This document shows positions 34,582-43,238 of a stretch of DNA of 64,000 nt, in pieces. Origin of the DNA: Halorubrum trapanicum. Its GTDB lineage: Archaea > Halobacteriota > Halobacteria > Halobacteriales > Haloferacaceae. The translations under genes and the position numbers were made by a program. The stretch spans positions 124,001-188,000 of the forward strand of contig NZ_JAGGKE010000005.1 of the NCBI RefSeq assembly GCF_017873555.1, given 5' to 3'. How positions within the stretch are numbered: position 1 is the first letter of the stretch; every line of letters begins with the position of its first letter. A model generated the notes under the pieces. That model made no database searches, was not told where the DNA came from, and saw only the letters and a program-made list of their open reading frames with translations.

Positions 34582-35862
34582 TCACTCCTCGGCGGTCGCG
34601 GTCGCGACCGCGTCGAGCAGTTCCGCGTCGCCGACGCCGGCGGAAACGGTGACGAGGCGGTCCGCGGCCGCGGCCACCTCGCCGTTCGGGCCGACCGCGT
34701 CGCCGGAGCCCTCGAAGCCGACCGCGAGCGTCGCGTCCGCGGCGGCGGCGAGGTCGCACGCAGCCCCGACCGTCTCCGCGGACGGTCCCTCGAAGGCCGG
34801 CGCCGTCACCGCGGTCGCGCCAGCGTCCGCGGCGGCGCCGGCGGCCGCGTCGCCGGCCGGGACCACGCCGACCGACGGCTCGTGACCCGCGGCGGCCAGC
34901 CGGGCGACGACGCGCGCGGCCGGACGACCCGTGCCGATCACGTGAACGCGCCGCCCCTCGACGTCGCTGTGCGGGAACGCCGTGACCGCGGGCGTCCCGG
35001 TCGCCGGGTTGCGGCCGACGAACGCCTCCGCGTCGAAGGCGGCGCCGACGGCGTCGGCGGAGAGCACCGACTCCGGCGGACCGGCGGCCCGGACGCCGCC
35101 GTTCGCGAGGACGACGACCTCGTCGCAGTACCGGGCGGCCGCGTCCAGGTCGTGGATGGCGGCGATCGCCCCCCGGTCGCCGTCGTCGACGAACTCGCGG
35201 ACCAGTTCGAGCGTCTCGACCGCGTGGTTCACGTCGAGGCTGGCGGTCGGCTCGTCCAACAGGAGGAGAGGGGCCGCCTGCGCCAGCGCTCGCGCGAGCA
35301 GCACGCGCTGGCGCTCCCCGCCGGAGACCTCGGTGATCGACCGGTCGGCGAAGCGGTCGACGTCCGCGGCAGCCATCGCGGCGTCGACCGCGGCGTCGTC
35401 CTCGACGCCGTGACCGTCGAACCTGCCGAGGTGCGGCGTCCGTCCCATCTCGACGACGTGGCGCACGCGGAAGTCGAACGCGAGGTTCGTCGCCTGCGGG
35501 ACGCTCGCGACGCGGCGCCCGACCTCCTTGGCCGACAGCGACGCGGCAGGGTCGCCGCCGATTTCGACGGTCCCCGCGTCCGGCTCGACCGCGCCGGTCA
35601 CCGCGCGCAACACCGTGGTCTTGCCGGCGCCGTTCGGCCCGACGAGACCGACGAGCGACCCCGGCTCGACCCGGAGGTCGACGCCGGAGACGACGTCGAG
35701 GTCGCCGAACGAGACGGCCACGTCCGAGGCCGACAGGAGCGGCGTGTCGCCGAACGACCGCGCCGTGTCTGGGAGCGAGGCCGGGTCGTCGCGCGCGGCC
35801 GCCGACTCCGCCGCGTCAGCCGCGTCCGACGCCGCGGCGTCCGCGGGGCGGTCCGCGCTCAC
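34582..35862 (-). CDS. btuD: Cobamide/heme ABC transporter ATPase with C-terminal extension
   Basis: A 426-aa ATPase partner of the BtuC-type permease. Walker A GPNGAGKTTVL, signature VSGGERQRVLLARAL, Walker B LLLLDEPTASLD, switch AAIHDLDAA. Residues beyond about 265 form an additional Ala-rich Rossmann-like domain (VHVIGTGRPAARVVARLAAAGHEPSVGVVPAG) absent from bacterial BtuD. GTG start at 35862 overlaps the btuC stop (GTGA). Substrate could be cobamide, heme or a siderophore. Confidence 0.9.
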   Translation of the reverse strand: MSADRPADAAASDAADAAESAAARDDPASLPDTARSFGDTPLLSASDVAVSFGDLDVVSGVDLRVEPGSLVGLVGPNGAGKTTVLRAVTGAVEPDAGTVEIGGDPAASLSAKEVGRRVASVPQATNLAFDFRVRHVVEMGRTPHLGRFDGHGVEDDAAVDAAMAAADVDRFADRSITEVSGGERQRVLLARALAQAAPLLLLDEPTASLDVNHAVETLELVREFVDDGDRGAIAAIHDLDAAARYCDEVVVLANGGVRAAGPPESVLSADAVGAAFDAEAFVGRNPATGTPAVTAFPHSDVEGRRVHVIGTGRPAARVVARLAAAGHEPSVGVVPAGDAAAGAAADAGATAVTAPAFEGPSAETVGAACDLAAAADATLAVGFEGSGDAVGPNGEVAAAADRLVTVSAGVGDAELLDAVATATAEE

Positions 35863-37025
35863 AGCTCCGACACCTCCCGGGTCACGAGCAGGTAGACGAA
35901 GAACGGCGCGCCGACCGCGGCGGTGATGATACCGACCGGGTACTCCGCGGCCGCCGAGCGCGCGAGCGTGTCGGCCGCGACGAGGAACGTGCCGCCCGCG
36001 AGCGCCGCGGTCGGGAGCAGCACACGGTGGTCGGGACCGACGACGAGCCGGAGCATGTGCGGGACGATGAGACCCACGAACCCGATCACGCCGGCGAACG
36101 CGACGCCGGCGGCCGTGATAAGCGCCGAGGCCGCGAGCAGCACGCGCTTCGTGCGCTCCACCGCGATGCCCAGCCCGCGGGCCTCCTCCTCGCCGAGCAG
36201 GAGGACGTTGAGGTCGCGGGCGTACGCGAGCAACACGACGAAAAGCGGCGGCACGACGAGCGCGGTGACGGCGACCTCGCTCCACGCGGCGCCCGACAGG
36301 TGACCCATCAGCCACGCGACGATCTGGCGGAGCGACTCGCCGGCCTGTAGCTGGAGGTACGAGACGACCGCGCCGAGGAACGTCTGGACCGCGACGCCCG
36401 CCAGGAGGAGGGTGGCGACGGGCGTCCGACCGCCCCGGGTCGCGATGGCGTACACGCCGAAAGCGGCGACGAGCGCCCCGACGAACGCGAAGAGGCTGGT
36501 CCCCGCGCCGCGCGAGAGCGCGAGGTCGACGGACCCGACGAGCGGGAGCGCGACCGTCGCCGAGAGCGCGGCGGGGAAGACGATGAACGCGACCGCGCCG
36601 ACCGCCGCCCCGGAGGAGACGCCGATGATCGAGGGGTCGGCCATCGGGTTGCGGAAGAACCCCTGCATCACCGTTCCTGCGGCCGCGAGCGCGAAGCCGA
36701 CGAGCGCGGCCAACAGGATCCGCGGGAGCCGCACGCCCACGACGATCTGCTGGTGAACGGAGTCGACGGGGAACGCGAACGGCGACGCGAACGCGAGGTC
36801 GATCCCCGGGAGCGTGAGCGGCCCGACGCCGGGCACCGGAAGCGGGCCGACGCCGCTCGCGCTCGTCTCGATCCCCGCCGGCACCGAGAGCGCGTTCAGC
36901 ACCGATTTGACGACGGTATCCGGCGGTATTCTGACGGGACCGATCGCCGCGCTAACGACGACGACGGCGGCCAGCAGCGCGGCTATCGCCCCCGACCAGA
37001 GCGACGATCGGACCCAGGGTCGCAT
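35859..37025 (-). CDS. btuC: Cobamide/heme ABC transporter permease, BtuC/FecCD family
   Basis: A 388-aa permease with about ten helices. Family motifs: VGVRLPRILLAALVGFALAAAG, MQGFFRNPMADPSIIGVSSGAAVGA, WLMGHLSGAAW, GFVGLIVPHMLRLVVGPDHR and LARSAAAEYPVGIITAAVGAPFF. Start at 37025 (MRPWVRSS); the longer upstream frame is read-through. First gene of btuC-btuD, divergent from btuF with a shared promoter region. Confidence 0.93.
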   Translation of the reverse strand: MRPWVRSSLWSGAIAALLAAVVVVSAAIGPVRIPPDTVVKSVLNALSVPAGIETSASGVGPLPVPGVGPLTLPGIDLAFASPFAFPVDSVHQQIVVGVRLPRILLAALVGFALAAAGTVMQGFFRNPMADPSIIGVSSGAAVGAVAFIVFPAALSATVALPLVGSVDLALSRGAGTSLFAFVGALVAAFGVYAIATRGGRTPVATLLLAGVAVQTFLGAVVSYLQLQAGESLRQIVAWLMGHLSGAAWSEVAVTALVVPPLFVVLLAYARDLNVLLLGEEEARGLGIAVERTKRVLLAASALITAAGVAFAGVIGFVGLIVPHMLRLVVGPDHRVLLPTAALAGGTFLVAADTLARSAAAEYPVGIITAAVGAPFFVYLLVTREVSEL

Positions 37026-37052
37026 ACGTTCTCCAACACAACTTGTAGTAGG

Positions 37053-37063
37053 TAAATACTTAT
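37053..37063. promoter_or_regulatory. Bidirectional TATA element between btuC and btuF
   Basis: TAAATACTTAT is roughly self-complementary and centred 30 nt from the btuF ATG (37088) and 33 nt from the btuC ATG (37025), so one A/T box could direct leaderless transcripts both ways within a 62-bp gap. Confidence 0.55.
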
Positions 37064-37087
37064 TGGACGAGGCCGGTCGTCGATGCG

Positions 37088-38320
37088 ATGCGAAACAGCT
37101 TCGCGATCGCGATGGCCGTGCTGGTGACGACCGCCCTGCTGGGCGGCGTGGCCGGGACCGCCGCGGGCGCACAGCCGACGATGTCGACCGACGGACCGAC
37201 CGCGGGCGCGGGGCCGGCGGTCGGTGCCGCGGGCGCGACGGGGACCGGGCCGGCGCAGACCGACGACGCCTGCGGGTTCCCGGTCGAGCTGACCGACGCG
37301 ACCGGGGAGACGGTGACGCTGGAGGAGCGTCCCGACCGGATCACGACGCTCAACCCCTCGGCCGCGCAGACGCTGTGGGAGCTGGGCGAGCGGGACCGGG
37401 TCGTCGGCGTGAGCCAGTTCGCGTTCTACCTCGACGGCGCCGAGGAGCGCGCCAACGTCTCCGCCGAGTTCGGCGCGAGCGTCGAGCGCGTCGTCGACAC
37501 CGACCCCGACCTGGTGTTGGCGCCGAACTCCTCGGCGGCCGACGTCGGGCCGCTCCGCGAGCAGGGGCTGACCGTCTACCACTTCCCGGCGGCGACGTCC
37601 GTCGACGACATCGCCGAGAAGACGGAGACGATCGGCCGGCTCGTCGGCGCGTGCGACGCCGCCAACGAGACCAACGCGGAGATGTACGACGCGGTCGACG
37701 CCGCCGAGGAGCGGACGGCCGACGTCGACCGCCCCGCCGCGCTCTACCCGCTCGGCGGCGGCTACGTCGCCGCGAACAACACGTTCATCGACGCGATCAT
37801 GAACGCGGGCGGGACGGACAACGCCGCCGCCGAGTACGAGGCGTACCCGCAGCTCTCCGACGAGGTCATCCTCGAAACGAATCCCGAGGTGATCCTCGTC
37901 ACCGACTCCGAGGCCGCCATCCTCGACTCGGAACCGTACGCCAGCACGACCGCGGGGACCGAGGGCAACTACATCGTGATGAACGAGAACTACCTCAACC
38001 AGCCGGCGCCGCGCAGCGTGATCGAGTCGACGGCGACGCTCTCGAACGCGGTGGTAGCGCTTCAAGACGATGGCGCTGAGTCGACCGACGGGGCCGACGA
38101 CGGGTCGGCCGACGACAGTTCGTCAGACGGCGACTCCTCGGGCGACGACAGCGGGACCGACGGCGAAGACGGCAACTCGACGGATCTCACGTCCGCGGAC
38201 GGGAACGAAAGCGACGAGAACGAAAGCGCCGGCGACACGGGCGCTGAATCGCCCGGATTCGGCGTCGTCGCTGCCGCCCTCGCACTGTTCGCGACCGGCC
38301 TGCTCGCGCGGCGCGACTGA
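37088..38320 (+). CDS. btuF: Cobamide/heme ABC substrate-binding protein with PGF-CTERM anchor
   Basis: A 410-aa protein: signal peptide, then a periplasmic-binding domain of the BtuF/FepB class (VELTDATGETVTLEERPDRI; VDTDPDLVLAPNSSAADV; QLSDEVILETNPEVILVTD). After residue about 330 comes a Ser/Asp/Thr linker and a C-terminal tripartite signal: SPGFGVVAAALALFATGLL then ARRD. This is a PGF-CTERM sorting motif, so archaeosortase-dependent lipid anchoring is expected, instead of the lipobox used by the other binding proteins here. Confidence 0.9.
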   Translation: MRNSFAIAMAVLVTTALLGGVAGTAAGAQPTMSTDGPTAGAGPAVGAAGATGTGPAQTDDACGFPVELTDATGETVTLEERPDRITTLNPSAAQTLWELGERDRVVGVSQFAFYLDGAEERANVSAEFGASVERVVDTDPDLVLAPNSSAADVGPLREQGLTVYHFPAATSVDDIAEKTETIGRLVGACDAANETNAEMYDAVDAAEERTADVDRPAALYPLGGGYVAANNTFIDAIMNAGGTDNAAAEYEAYPQLSDEVILETNPEVILVTDSEAAILDSEPYASTTAGTEGNYIVMNENYLNQPAPRSVIESTATLSNAVVALQDDGAESTDGADDGSADDSSSDGDSSGDDSGTDGEDGNSTDLTSADGNESDENESAGDTGAESPGFGVVAAALALFATGLLARRD

Positions 38321-38350: not shown

Positions 38351-39598
38351 TTAAATTCCCTGGCCCATCAGGTGGCTGCGGAGGATGTCCGGCGTCTTCA
38401 GCCCGGCGTCGCCGTTGAGCAGCACGACGGTCTCGTCGCCGTCGAAGAAGCCCGCCTCGGCGAGCGCCCACGCCCCGGCGGGAGCCGCCCCGCCCGCCGC
38501 GCCCATCTCGACGACCTCGTTCTGCGCCACGGCGACCGCGCTCGCGAGGACCTCGTCGTCGTCGACGCCGACCGCGGTCCCGCCGCTCTCCGTGACCGCC
38601 TCGACGGCCGCGGCGCCGCCCGCGGGGTTCGGGATCTCCAGTTCGCCGCAGATGGTGTCCGGCGTCGACCACGGCTCCGGCTCGTCGAGGCCACGCTCGA
38701 CGGCGGCCGCGATCGGGGCGCAGCCCGAGGCCTGGGCGGCGACGACCTTCGGGACCCCGTCGATCGCGCCGATCCGGTCGAGCTCGTCGAACCCCTTGTG
38801 GACGCCCGCGACGACCTCGCCGGAGCCGGTCGGGACGACGACGACGTCCGGGGCGTCGCCGAGGTCGGCGACGAGTTCGAACGCAATGGTCTTCGCTCCC
38901 TCGTGGCGGTACGGCGTGACGAACTCGCCGAGGTCGGTGTAGTCGGTCTCCAGCTGCTCGTCGACCGCGGCGGCGGCGTCCGGGAAGCGCCCGCCGACCA
39001 CGCGCATCTCGCCGCCGTGGACGTTCGTCATCGACTTGTTCGAGAACGCACAGCGGGAGGGGACGAACGCGTACGAGCGCAGGTCAGCCCGGCCCGCGTA
39101 CGCCGCCATCGACTGGCCGGCGTTACCGGGGCTCGCGCAGACGAGCGGCTCCACGTCGGCCCCCTCCGCCGCCCGGTCCGCCACCGCGGTCACGGCGAGC
39201 GAGAGGCCGCGGTCGAGGACGGTGCCGGTCGGGTTCCGCCCCTCGTCTTTGACGTACACGGCGTCGACGTCGAGCTCGTCGGCGAGCCGCTCGGTGGCGA
39301 CGAGCGGCGTGGCGCCCTCGCCCGCGGTGAGCGCGTCCTCCGCCGGGAAGGGGAGGAGCGCGTCGAAGCGCCAGTGGCCGCGGGCGGTGGCGGGCGCGGT
39401 CCGGGCGTCGCCGCTCGCGCCGCGGGCCGCGGGGTCGAACAGGTCGTCCGGGTCGACCGCGTCGTAGTCGTAGACGGGGTCGAGGCCGCGCGCCCGCTCG
39501 TCGTCGTCGATCTCCGCCGCGTCGGCGGTCTCGTGAACGCGTCCCGACGCCCGACTCTTCAGCCCGCGAAACGCCGGCGTGGTCTCGGTCGTCTCCAT
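38351..39598 (-). CDS. Threonine-synthase-like PLP-fold protein lacking Schiff-base Lys
   Basis: A 415-aa fold-type II PLP enzyme homologue closest to threonine synthase: EGATPLVATERLADELDVDAVYVKDEGRNPTG, then SPGNAGQSMAAYAG (substrate loop) and PTGSGEVVAGVHKG (PLP-phosphate loop). The family motif NPTGSFKDR, whose Lys forms the internal aldimine, reads NPTGTVLDR here; the codon is CTC (Leu). Either catalysis differs or the protein is non-catalytic. The reading frame is otherwise intact and full length, so this is not a decayed pseudogene. Confidence 0.85.
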   Translation of the reverse strand: METTETTPAFRGLKSRASGRVHETADAAEIDDDERARGLDPVYDYDAVDPDDLFDPAARGASGDARTAPATARGHWRFDALLPFPAEDALTAGEGATPLVATERLADELDVDAVYVKDEGRNPTGTVLDRGLSLAVTAVADRAAEGADVEPLVCASPGNAGQSMAAYAGRADLRSYAFVPSRCAFSNKSMTNVHGGEMRVVGGRFPDAAAAVDEQLETDYTDLGEFVTPYRHEGAKTIAFELVADLGDAPDVVVVPTGSGEVVAGVHKGFDELDRIGAIDGVPKVVAAQASGCAPIAAAVERGLDEPEPWSTPDTICGELEIPNPAGGAAAVEAVTESGGTAVGVDDDEVLASAVAVAQNEVVEMGAAGGAAPAGAWALAEAGFFDGDETVVLLNGDAGLKTPDILRSHLMGQGI

Positions 39599-39646: not shown

Positions 39647-40099
39647 CTACTCGGGGGTGAACCGGACCGCCGCCGTCCGGTCCGCCCGCTCGCGGCGGTC
39701 GCGGACCTCCTCGACCAGCGCCGCCACGCGCTCCGGCTCCGTTTCGAGCGCCTCGGCGGTCGTCTCCCGGTCCATGTCGAACCAGCCGAACAGCACGACG
39801 ATCCGCGCCTCTCGCGGGGGGAACAGCGACTCGGCGACGAGGTCGGCCGCGAGCGCGCCCACGTCCACCTGCTCGAAGCCGTTTCCGAACCGCCGGTAGA
39901 GGTCGCGGTCGAGCTCGCCGAGCGGCATCCGGCCGCGGTCCTCGTCGGCGGGGACGTCGACCCGATCCAGGAAGCCGGAGGGAAACGTTCCGAACTTCGG
40001 ATTCTCAGCGTCGTCGACGTAGCCGAAGGTCCGCTCCGGACGGTCGATCGGCGTCGCGACCGCGCCGTAGTGAAGCCAGCGGTCGTCGGACCGGGTCAT
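39647..40099 (-). CDS. Hypothetical protein with sigma-region-4-like C-terminus
   Basis: A 150-aa acidic protein: MTRSDDRWLHYGAVATPID start at 40099. C-terminal LFPPREARIVVLFGWFDMDRETTAEALETEPERVAALVEEV resembles the helix-turn-helix of sigma-70 region 4 or a TetR-like bihelix, but weakly. The N-terminal part has no recognised domain. It is immediately upstream of the threonine-synthase-like gene on the same strand (48-nt gap), so possibly co-transcribed. Confidence 0.65.
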   Translation of the reverse strand: MTRSDDRWLHYGAVATPIDRPERTFGYVDDAENPKFGTFPSGFLDRVDVPADEDRGRMPLGELDRDLYRRFGNGFEQVDVGALAADLVAESLFPPREARIVVLFGWFDMDRETTAEALETEPERVAALVEEVRDRRERADRTAAVRFTPE

Positions 40100-40468
40100 G
40101 GACCCCTCCCGGCCGACGCGGTCGTCTGTCGTACTGCGATTCTTCTTCCGCGAGACTCTCGGTCCGCCGCCGAGCGCGTCACGGAGACGGAGCGTTTCCT
40201 CCGGAACGCCGACTCGGGGCACATACCCTCCGATTCCTGTGGGGGAATTTCAAACCGATCCCCCCGGTTATCGCGCGTGATTCCGCCGTCGGGAGATCGA
40301 TGCTAAATAACCATCAGTAGTTGGACATATTCTTTTCAACCATCGCGTAGGTCCTCGGCCGGTGATTCGCCGCGCGGTAAACGGTCAGATCGAGGGCACA
40401 GCTTCGGAGACTTGATCGGTGCCGCCACGTCGGGACGCCCGTCGTGATCGTGTCGTCCTCGCTCGTAG
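40100..40468. other. Intergenic region without recognisable gene
   Basis: About 370 bases. Contains an A/T patch (40300-40335, CTAAATAACC and ATATTCTTTTC). ORFs on either strand are short, rich in Arg/Thr and without domain features. Probably 3' flank of the siderophore-binding gene and promoter of the 150-aa gene. Confidence 0.4.
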
Positions 40469-41692
40469 TTAGAAGTCCCCGTTGATGATATCCGCCACCC
40501 GCTGGCGGTCGAAGAGCCGTTCGCTCTCGGGAATTTCGGGGTACGGTCCGTCGGTGTAGGGTGGCCACTCGCCGAAGACGTCGGGGTACAACTGCTTGGC
40601 GGCCATCTCTGTCTGGAAGAGGTTCATTATCGGTCCCTGATAGCGCCCGCCTTGGGTGTAAATGCGCTCGTTTTGAACGGCCGACAGCGATTGAGTCGCC
40701 TGATTGCTCGCGAGGCGCTCTCTGGTTCGTTCGACGTGTCTGGACTCGGACATCCCCGCCAGACAGAGGATCACGTCCGGATCGGCCTCAATGAGCGCTT
40801 CGAAATCGACGGTCGACTCCGTCGGGATGTCGGCAAACACGTCTTCCGCCCCGAGCGGTCGAGTATGAGCCGTCAGGAAGCCGGGACCGTTCAACGCGTA
40901 GACGTACAGACTGTCCTTCCCGCCGATGAGAATAACCATCGCTACCGTCGGTCGCTCGTCCTCGGGCGGGAGGTTCGTCTCGATGGTGGAGAGCATCTCG
41001 GTGTGGACCTCGGCGAGCGCCTCGTAGCGGTCCTCGGCCTGGAACACCGCCGCGACGTTCTCGAATATCTCCCAGAGGGTGTAGTACTCGTAGTCCGCGG
41101 CCCACTCACTGGCCGGTTCTTTGTTGGCGTTGCTGAGCGTGTTACCGAACCACGGGGAGACGTTCTCGGCGACCTCCTCGATGTCGTCGCGCGTCCAGTT
41201 CTGCATGTTCGTCATGTAGGCCGGATCGGCGAGGTGGAGGTCGCTGTCCAGTTCGTAGAGTCGCTCCTTGCCCGGGTTCCACGTTCCCGGGAGGTCGGCC
41301 CAGTCGACCGAAACGCCGGGAATCCGTTCGAGAAACTTGTTCCATATCGTGTCGTTGTATCCCTTGTTGTACATCATCGAGGCGACTGCCTCCCCGTGAC
41401 CGGCCGCGGTCACCATGTCGGCGTGGTGTGGAAGCACCGTGAAGACGGTCTCAGGCGGCTGCTCGAAGCTGACCTCTCCCACGGGTGCCATCGACACCGT
41501 GTAGCTGTCCTCTTCCGGCACGGGCGTCTCCGATCCGGTCGACTCGTTGCCTGCGCTCGCGTCGGTCGGTGACGAGCCGGGATCGGACTGCCCGGTACAC
41601 CCGGCGAACAGTCCGCCACCGATGGCTGCTCCGCCGTACTTCACGTAGTCACGTCGGGTCGGTGCTTCGCGGTCGCTCTGATCGTCTGCCAT
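40469..41692 (-). CDS. Iron-siderophore ABC substrate-binding lipoprotein
   Basis: A 407-aa protein. Tat signal TRRDYVKYGG and lipobox FAGC near residue 32. Binding domain of the FepB/FhuD type: VFTVLPHHADMVTAAGHG, LHLADPAYMTNMQNW, VDFEALIEADPDVILCLAGMSE. No permease or ATPase adjacent. A DtxR-type iron box overlaps its promoter (41697-41712), supporting iron regulation. Lower GC than the neighbours. Confidence 0.88.
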   Translation of the reverse strand: MADDQSDREAPTRRDYVKYGGAAIGGGLFAGCTGQSDPGSSPTDASAGNESTGSETPVPEEDSYTVSMAPVGEVSFEQPPETVFTVLPHHADMVTAAGHGEAVASMMYNKGYNDTIWNKFLERIPGVSVDWADLPGTWNPGKERLYELDSDLHLADPAYMTNMQNWTRDDIEEVAENVSPWFGNTLSNANKEPASEWAADYEYYTLWEIFENVAAVFQAEDRYEALAEVHTEMLSTIETNLPPEDERPTVAMVILIGGKDSLYVYALNGPGFLTAHTRPLGAEDVFADIPTESTVDFEALIEADPDVILCLAGMSESRHVERTRERLASNQATQSLSAVQNERIYTQGGRYQGPIMNLFQTEMAAKQLYPDVFGEWPPYTDGPYPEIPESERLFDRQRVADIINGDF

Positions 41693-41915: not shown

Positions 41916-43238
41916 ATGAACGGAGACGCCACGGTCGTCGGCGGCGGGCTGGCGGGGCTGGTCGCGGCGACGCGGCTGGCCGAGGCGGGCGCGGACGTGA
42001 CGCTGTACGAGCGACGGCCCGAGGTCGGCGGGCGCGTGCGGACCGAGACGGTCGACGGCTTCACCCTCGACCGCGGCTTTCAGGTGCTGTTTTCGAGCTA
42101 CCCCGCCGTCGAGCGCGAACTGGGACCCGACGGGCTGGACGAACTCGACCTCCGGACGTTCGCCCCGGGCGCGACGATCTGTCGACCCGGGTCGCGCTCG
42201 ACCCTCGGGGACCCGCTCCGCGACCCGCGCTCCGCGGTCCCGTCGCTTTTGAACGACGAGGTTTCCCTCTCCGACAAGCTCCGGACGCTCGCGCTCCGGT
42301 ACGACCTCGAGAACCGCGACGAGGACGAGTTCTTCGCCGGCCCCGACGCGCCGATCCGCGAGTACCTCCGCGACTGGGGGTTCGCCGACAACTACGTGAC
42401 GAACTTCGTGGAGCCGTTCTACGGCGGGATCACCCTCGACCGGTCGCTGTCGACCTCGAAGCACGTCTTCGAGTACACGTTCCGCGCGATGGGCCGGGGG
42501 TCGATCGGCGTCCCCGCCGACGGGATGGCCGCGCTCCCCGCCGCGCTCGCCGACCGCGCCCGCGAGGCGGGCGTCGAGATCCGGACCGGCGAGGACGTGG
42601 AGGCGGTACGGATCGCGGGGGAGGGCCGGATCCCGTTCCGGACCGGCAAGGCCGACGCCGACGGCGCCACCGTCGAACTCGCGGACGGCTCGACCCGCGA
42701 GACGGACGCGGTCGTCGTCGCGACCTCGCCGCCCGAGGCGCGGCGGCTCACCGGCGTCGAGTCGATTCCGACCGAGGGCGTGCCGAACGTCACGGGGTGG
42801 TACGCGCTCCCCGCCGGTGAGTCGTTCGAGACGGGCGGGCGGATCCTGCTCAACGCCGCCGACGAATCCCCCAACGCCGTGGTCCCGATGTCGGAGGTCG
42901 CGCCCGAGTACGCGCCCGACGACCGCGCGCTGCTCGCGGCGACGTTCCTCGGCGAGGACGCGCTCGACCGCGACGCCGACGCGCTCCGCGGCGACGTGCG
43001 CGACGCGCTGGCGGCGTGGTTCCCCGAGCGCGAGTTCGCGGGGCTGGAGACCCTCGACGTCCACCGGATCCGGTTCGCGCAGTTCGCGCAGCCGCCGGGC
43101 GTCCACGCCGAGCTCCCCGACCCGGACGACCCCGAAGGGCCGGTCGTCCTCGCGGGCGACTACACGGAGTGGTCGTCGATCCAGGGCGCGTTATCGAGCG
43201 GGCGGACGGCGGCCGAGGCGGCGGGCGAGTACCTCTGA
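41916..43238 (+). CDS. FAD-dependent amine oxidase/protoporphyrinogen-oxidase-like protein
   Basis: A 440-aa flavoprotein. FAD dinucleotide motif VVGGGLAGLVAATRLAEAGADVTLYE with GGRVRTE, then DGFTLDRGFQVLF. C-terminal GPVVLAGDYTEWSSIQGALSSGRTAAEA is the second FAD contact. Related to phytoene desaturase and HemG/HemY-type oxidases; the substrate is not readable. TATA-like GCTTATAAAC (41885-41894) gives a leaderless start. Confidence 0.85.
   Translation: MNGDATVVGGGLAGLVAATRLAEAGADVTLYERRPEVGGRVRTETVDGFTLDRGFQVLFSSYPAVERELGPDGLDELDLRTFAPGATICRPGSRSTLGDPLRDPRSAVPSLLNDEVSLSDKLRTLALRYDLENRDEDEFFAGPDAPIREYLRDWGFADNYVTNFVEPFYGGITLDRSLSTSKHVFEYTFRAMGRGSIGVPADGMAALPAALADRAREAGVEIRTGEDVEAVRIAGEGRIPFRTGKADADGATVELADGSTRETDAVVVATSPPEARRLTGVESIPTEGVPNVTGWYALPAGESFETGGRILLNAADESPNAVVPMSEVAPEYAPDDRALLAATFLGEDALDRDADALRGDVRDALAAWFPEREFAGLETLDVHRIRFAQFAQPPGVHAELPDPDDPEGPVVLAGDYTEWSSIQGALSSGRTAAEAAGEYL

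Follow-up and report, generated by a model that had tools for sequence, protein, structure and literature searches.

Threonine synthases (TS; ThrC) adopt the fold type II structure of pyridoxal phosphate (PLP) enzymes and carry the PLP Schiff-base lysine in the motif NPTGSFKDR. LCB1/SPTLC1 of serine palmitoyltransferase belongs to PLP fold type I. It is a lysine-less PLP-enzyme paralogue that is kept as the partner of its catalytic paralogue (PMC3794620). Literature searches returned no account of a threonine synthase without the Schiff-base lysine.

The window, a 64,000-nucleotide stretch of Halorubrum trapanicum DNA, encodes a TS homologue in which leucine occupies the position of this lysine. 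Within the threonine synthase family, the protein is probably a pseudoenzyme that has kept the fold, lost the PLP chemistry and serves a non-catalytic role. The gene, its motifs and its divergent neighbour are located in the window as follows.

38351..39598 (-), gene of the putative threonine-synthase-like pseudoenzyme, 415 aa (ORF, Pfam, AlphaFold2 model)
39500..39556 (-), degenerate N-terminal zinc ribbon (alignment)
39209..39250 (-), KDEGRNPTGTVLDR, aa 117-130, with Leu128 in place of the PLP Schiff-base Lys (alignments)
39116..39133 (-), SPGNAG, aa 156-161; SAGNAG in lysine-bearing orthologues (alignment)
38804..38833 (-), former PLP-phosphate loop PTGSGEVVAG, aa 256-265 (alignment)
38621..38647 (-), GELEIPNPA, aa 318-326; GGIEIPDPG in lysine-bearing orthologues (alignment)
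38354..38389 (-), C-terminal tail DILRSHLMGQGI, aa 404-415 (alignment of orthologues and paralogues)
41916..43238 (+), FAD amine-oxidase/HpnE-like gene, divergently transcribed neighbour (profile match, synteny)

The reading frame (38351-39598, minus strand) starts with ATG and encodes 415 residues without an internal stop, in line with the full length reported by the initial annotation. The only Pfam domain of the protein is PALP (PF00291; E = 7.5e-61), and the solved structures nearest to it by sequence are threonine synthases. Bacterial TS share 32-35% identity with the window protein, in which the ThrC framework of NPTG...DRG, GN and YRxEGxKT is also found. The TS motif NPTGSFKDR aligns with NPTGTVLDR (residues 122-130; 39209-39235), and Leu128, encoded by CTC at 39215-39217 on the minus strand, falls on the Schiff-base lysine. 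The initial annotation had placed this Lys-to-Leu change within 39214-39246. Unlike ThrC, the window protein lacks the PLP lysine, has GSGEV in place of the loop sequence GNAGN (PVGNAGN in TS) and contains Glu/Phe at positions 225/226, aligned near the N-S of the TS motif NSVNPYR.

The lysine-bearing haloarchaeal orthologues (PRK08197) are closer, with ~48-56% identity, the same amine-oxidase locus and the same RSHLMGxG tail. Compared with them, the window protein has lost the lysine, PTGGGVG, SAGN, K235, G326 and the zinc ribbon, whose cysteines number four in the lysine-bearing orthologues and zero here. The SPGNAG motif that had been named earlier is present at residues 156-161. The PLP-phosphate loop, in contrast, is not retained as had been claimed: PTGSGEV exists as a string, but the lysine-bearing orthologues read PTGGGVGLVG (PTGGGVGL in all of them) where the window protein reads PTGSGEVVAG, with GGG changed to GSG and followed by Glu. 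The glycine-rich PLP-phosphate loop of PALP fold type II is thus altered (PTGSGE) and the Schiff-base lysine is missing (Leu128), whereas the fold itself is present (Pfam E = 7.5e-61; Z 47 between the model and TS). The window protein scores below both threonine synthase profiles, with 136.7 against the cutoff of 167.1 for TIGR00260 (thrC) and 252.5 against the cutoff of 303 for the PRK08197 'threonine synthase' equivalog (NF006050). All lysine-bearing proteins that were scored lie above the latter cutoff (366-407), whereas L105, like the window protein, lies below it (299.4).

The AlphaFold2 model was obtained with a 99-row alignment (pLDDT 95.8, pTM 0.94; single-sequence input gave only pLDDT 34.8), and the predicted fold is intact. 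The top structural matches of the model are threonine synthases (6nmx, 6cgq, 1v7c, 2zsj, 2d1f and 2c2b; Z 42-47 over ~327 residues), and the match to the plant enzyme 2c2b extends over the N-terminal part too. An essential catalytic residue is lost and both fold and selection are kept, the combination expected of a pseudoenzyme.

The absence of the lysine extends to the whole family as sampled. We searched 392 sampled Halobacteriales genomes for KDExRNPTG..[x]DR with exact DNA patterns. The window's family accounts for 94 of them, of which 92 show a non-lysine codon and the remaining two encode Ile and Thr, so that Lys is missing in all 94. Across 40 orthologous loci from Halorubrum and close relatives, the residue is Leu throughout except for Phe in two and Tyr in Halohasta. 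The alignment with haloarchaeal homologues that the initial annotation had proposed thereby shows the loss to be conserved in Halorubrum and the window's family, and this conservation across species rules out a sequencing error or a strain-specific mutation. The orthologue group as a whole, with lysine-bearing and lysine-less members pooled, has a match at E 1e-80 in 353 of the 392 genomes. In one Halorubrum genome, a change of frame around residue 251 breaks the orthologue (L123; G120:C1:545321-554064) in two, through either real decay or an assembly error. Outside Halobacteriales, no lysine-less variant was found in the sampled genomes of the phylum with the exact pattern, which misses codons starting with A.

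The lysine has been lost repeatedly. In other haloarchaeal families, the syntenic orthologue mostly contains NPTG[ST]FKDR, but lysine-less versions also occur in families f4, f5, f6, f7, f9 and f12. Residue 128 of the lysine-less rows is Leu, Ala, Thr, Tyr, Arg, Gly, Glu, Asp, His, Ile, Trp or Val. On a tree of 106 proteins with the motif columns removed, the residue must have changed state 6 times or more, and well-supported branches enforce 5 of these changes. If regain of Lys is disallowed, our reading of the tree, which ignores the frame-broken L053 and L123, gives ~11 losses. When the co-varying columns are dropped along with the motif columns, a second tree rejects the union of all lysine-less proteins in one clade (AU p = 4.6e-6, delta lnL 180.5; the long-branched L150 was left out of this test). 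The clearest loss lies within genus g25 of f5, where L158-L160 contain Thr beside Lys in L111 and L161, and is recent.

Loss of the lysine is accompanied by coordinated changes in the cofactor site. The comparison covers the 183 columns whose conservation reaches 93% or more across 29 lysine-bearing rows, and its 11 lysine-less lineages, f9 not among them, are set by our reading of the tree, for which 5-6 changes are the firm minimum. K128, A157, T225 and G326 are changed in 11 of 11 lineages, C369, G259 and M238 in 10, and K235 and F127 in 9. A157 lies in the motif that reads SPGNAG in the window protein, and G259 is the PLP-phosphate loop position at which GGG becomes GxG. T225 and K235 fall within the segment aligned to the NSVNPYRIEGQKT segment of TS, which is expected from TS structures to contact the substrate phosphate. 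Despite the loss of the lysine, K117, D118, R121, N122, P123, T124, D129 and R130 are nearly invariant, as are G158, K188, H194, R231, G260, Q289 and others. All 31 rows of the window's family carry Glu261 and Glu319. Elsewhere, Glu261 recurs in two further lysine-less lineages, and the f7 lineage shares Glu319. Judged from the alignment, an acid in the former phosphate cup would speak against PLP there.

The locus and the C-terminal tail are common to lysine-bearing and lysine-less members. The FAD amine-oxidase gene adjoins orthologues of both kinds in 8 families, and genes for a putative metallophosphoesterase, a LysE-type exporter and a DtxR-type regulator, identified by eye, recur nearby. 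The tail LRSHLMGxG[IV] is shared by lysine-less rows and lysine-bearing rows from the same locus. In the alignment, it is absent from the lysine-bearing copies at a second locus (L002 type) and from ThrC. Because the tail outlasts the catalytic lysine, a constraint other than catalysis appears to act on it. The initial annotation did not include the recurrence of the loss, the coordinated changes around the cofactor or the locus and tail that lysine-bearing orthologues share.

The genome contains nine PALP genes. One of them, at another site, is a canonical ThrC (L003; G000:C14), which scores 292.6 bits against the TIGR00260 cutoff of 167.1 and answers the search for a second thrC proposed earlier. 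Its orthologue is present in 384 of 392 genomes and in 345 of 345 good ones, so threonine synthesis would not need to depend on the lysine-less gene. In H. volcanii, insertion in thrC3, one of its thrC genes, leads to auxotrophy (PMC4300041), and the other thrC copies there therefore do not cover for thrC3. In one genome (G212:C1:823793-825046), the search output shows a canonical ThrC with an in-frame TGA. The second-locus lysine-bearing copy (L002, L182-L186) occurs in several genera of the window's family and groups with proteins of genus g78 of f4 and of f17; this grouping with proteins of other families suggests acquisition by horizontal transfer. Dependence of the lysine-less gene on this second-locus paralogue was rejected because many genomes of the family have no copy by the exact pattern, which misses, for example, L002.

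Loss of the lysine, its conservation and purifying selection are best read as a non-catalytic role, which the initial annotation had offered as one option, and it is probable that the conserved job of the protein lies outside catalysis. The most economical account combines an ancestral non-catalytic role with repeated loss of PLP. The haloarchaeal TS paralogue would have had its non-catalytic job already in the lysine-bearing ancestor, and PLP chemistry would have been dropped several times, either because the universal ThrC supplied it or because the need for it had gone. A job that predates the loss would make the lysine repeatedly dispensable and would explain why the locus, the pocket rim (K117, N122-T124, D129, R130 and R231) and the LRSHLMGxG tail are kept. 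A more specific and more tentative version is that PLP was shed ~10 times in parallel with the same pocket changes and that in the window's family the emptied pocket, having gained two invariant Glu residues, now binds a new ligand or a partner protein; the new ligand would then probably be cationic or amino.

The protein may act on the universal ThrC, or on another fold II enzyme, as a non-catalytic partner or regulator, at somewhat less than an even chance; with a slightly lower probability, it may be a sensor whose emptied pocket binds an amino acid or a related compound. The role is most likely one of these two, between which we make no firm choice. By analogy with LCB1, canonical ThrC would be the candidate partner, and it co-occurs in all good genomes. 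The partnership has been shown for LCB1 (PMC3794620), whereas that of the window protein is only inferred; moreover, the lysine loss here has recurred inside one orthologue group.

A redirected enzyme, whose reaction would be PLP-independent or use non-covalent PLP and would employ the pocket residues with Glu261 and Glu319 in the window's family, is unlikely. The almost invariant pocket rim, which here includes K236 with K117, N122, P123, T124, D129, R130 and R231, would fit residual catalysis as well. The full invariance of Glu261 and Glu319 in the family and the occurrence of each in other lysine-less lineages resemble selection for novelty rather than decay. The structural matches also include fold II lysine mutants, namely K41A OASS (1d6s, whose title names a PLP-amino acid external aldimine), K95A CAS (3vc3) and K87T TrpB (2tys). 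Since such mutants can bind external aldimines, PLP could be bound without the lysine, above all where a lineage has retained a larger part of the loop. However, position 128 varies freely and so is not a new catalytic residue, and neither Glu261 nor Glu319 is universal among the lysine-less lineages.

Relaxed decay, in which a redundant thrC paralogue is turning into a pseudogene, is very improbable. The zinc-ribbon cysteines are also gone in Halorubrum and several sister genera, the reading frame of L123 is broken, and amino-acid divergence exceeds that of ThrC (dN 0.081 versus 0.039 in ten matched genomes). The retention data nevertheless argue strongly against decay. The median dN/dS is 0.20 over 592 Halorubrum pairs and, in the ten matched genomes, 0.18 versus 0.13 for canonical ThrC, values that bear out the earlier claim of a gene under selection. 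Moreover, 82 positions are invariant over 31 rows of the window's family, the tail and the syntenic position are conserved, and the orthologue group is as widely present as described above. The weakest alternative, in which the Schiff base would be formed by a pre-existing lysine such as K117 or K188, is scarcely credible: K117, K188, K236 and K401 are kept in 94-100% of lysine-less rows (and K268 in most), but the same residues are equally conserved in lysine-bearing orthologues, which indicates no recruited replacement and gives no support to the earlier suggestion that another lysine is used; K117, K236 and K401 align to Lys in canonical ThrC and so have other roles in PLP enzymes, and the phosphate loop is altered simultaneously.

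Pseudoenzymes are usually studied as single events, whereas one orthologue group here contains independent losses of the same lysine. The co-varying residues separate the needs of PLP catalysis from those of the retained function. If the non-catalytic role is indeed ancestral, the group would provide natural replicates of the conversion of an enzyme into a pseudoenzyme. Many haloarchaeal genomes carry the gene under the homology-based label 'threonine synthase', which is very unlikely to be correct; such labels matter for metabolic models, and annotation as threonine synthase is inadvisable.

Directly upstream of the gene, a 191-aa ORF (39647-40222, minus strand) matches nothing in Pfam or NCBIfam, and only two of the examined loci contain a clear homologue of it. 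A second substrate-binding protein (40469-41692, minus strand; Peripla_BP_2), weakly similar to an F420-0 transporter protein, is encoded between the pseudoenzyme and amine-oxidase genes, with no adjacent permease genes. BtuD/BtuC/BtuF-like transporter genes (34582-38320) lie beside the gene in many Halorubrum genomes and not in other genera, and the BtuF-like protein is a PGF-CTERM-anchored substrate-binding protein (TIGR04281). A link to cobalamin transport was rejected because the BtuCDF neighbours are limited to Halorubrum and its closest relatives and leave the gene unexplained. A LysE/RhtB-like exporter gene, recognized by eye, is located 3' of the orthologue at L135:5896-6588 and at 32 other loci from several families; exporters of this type include threonine/homoserine exporters.
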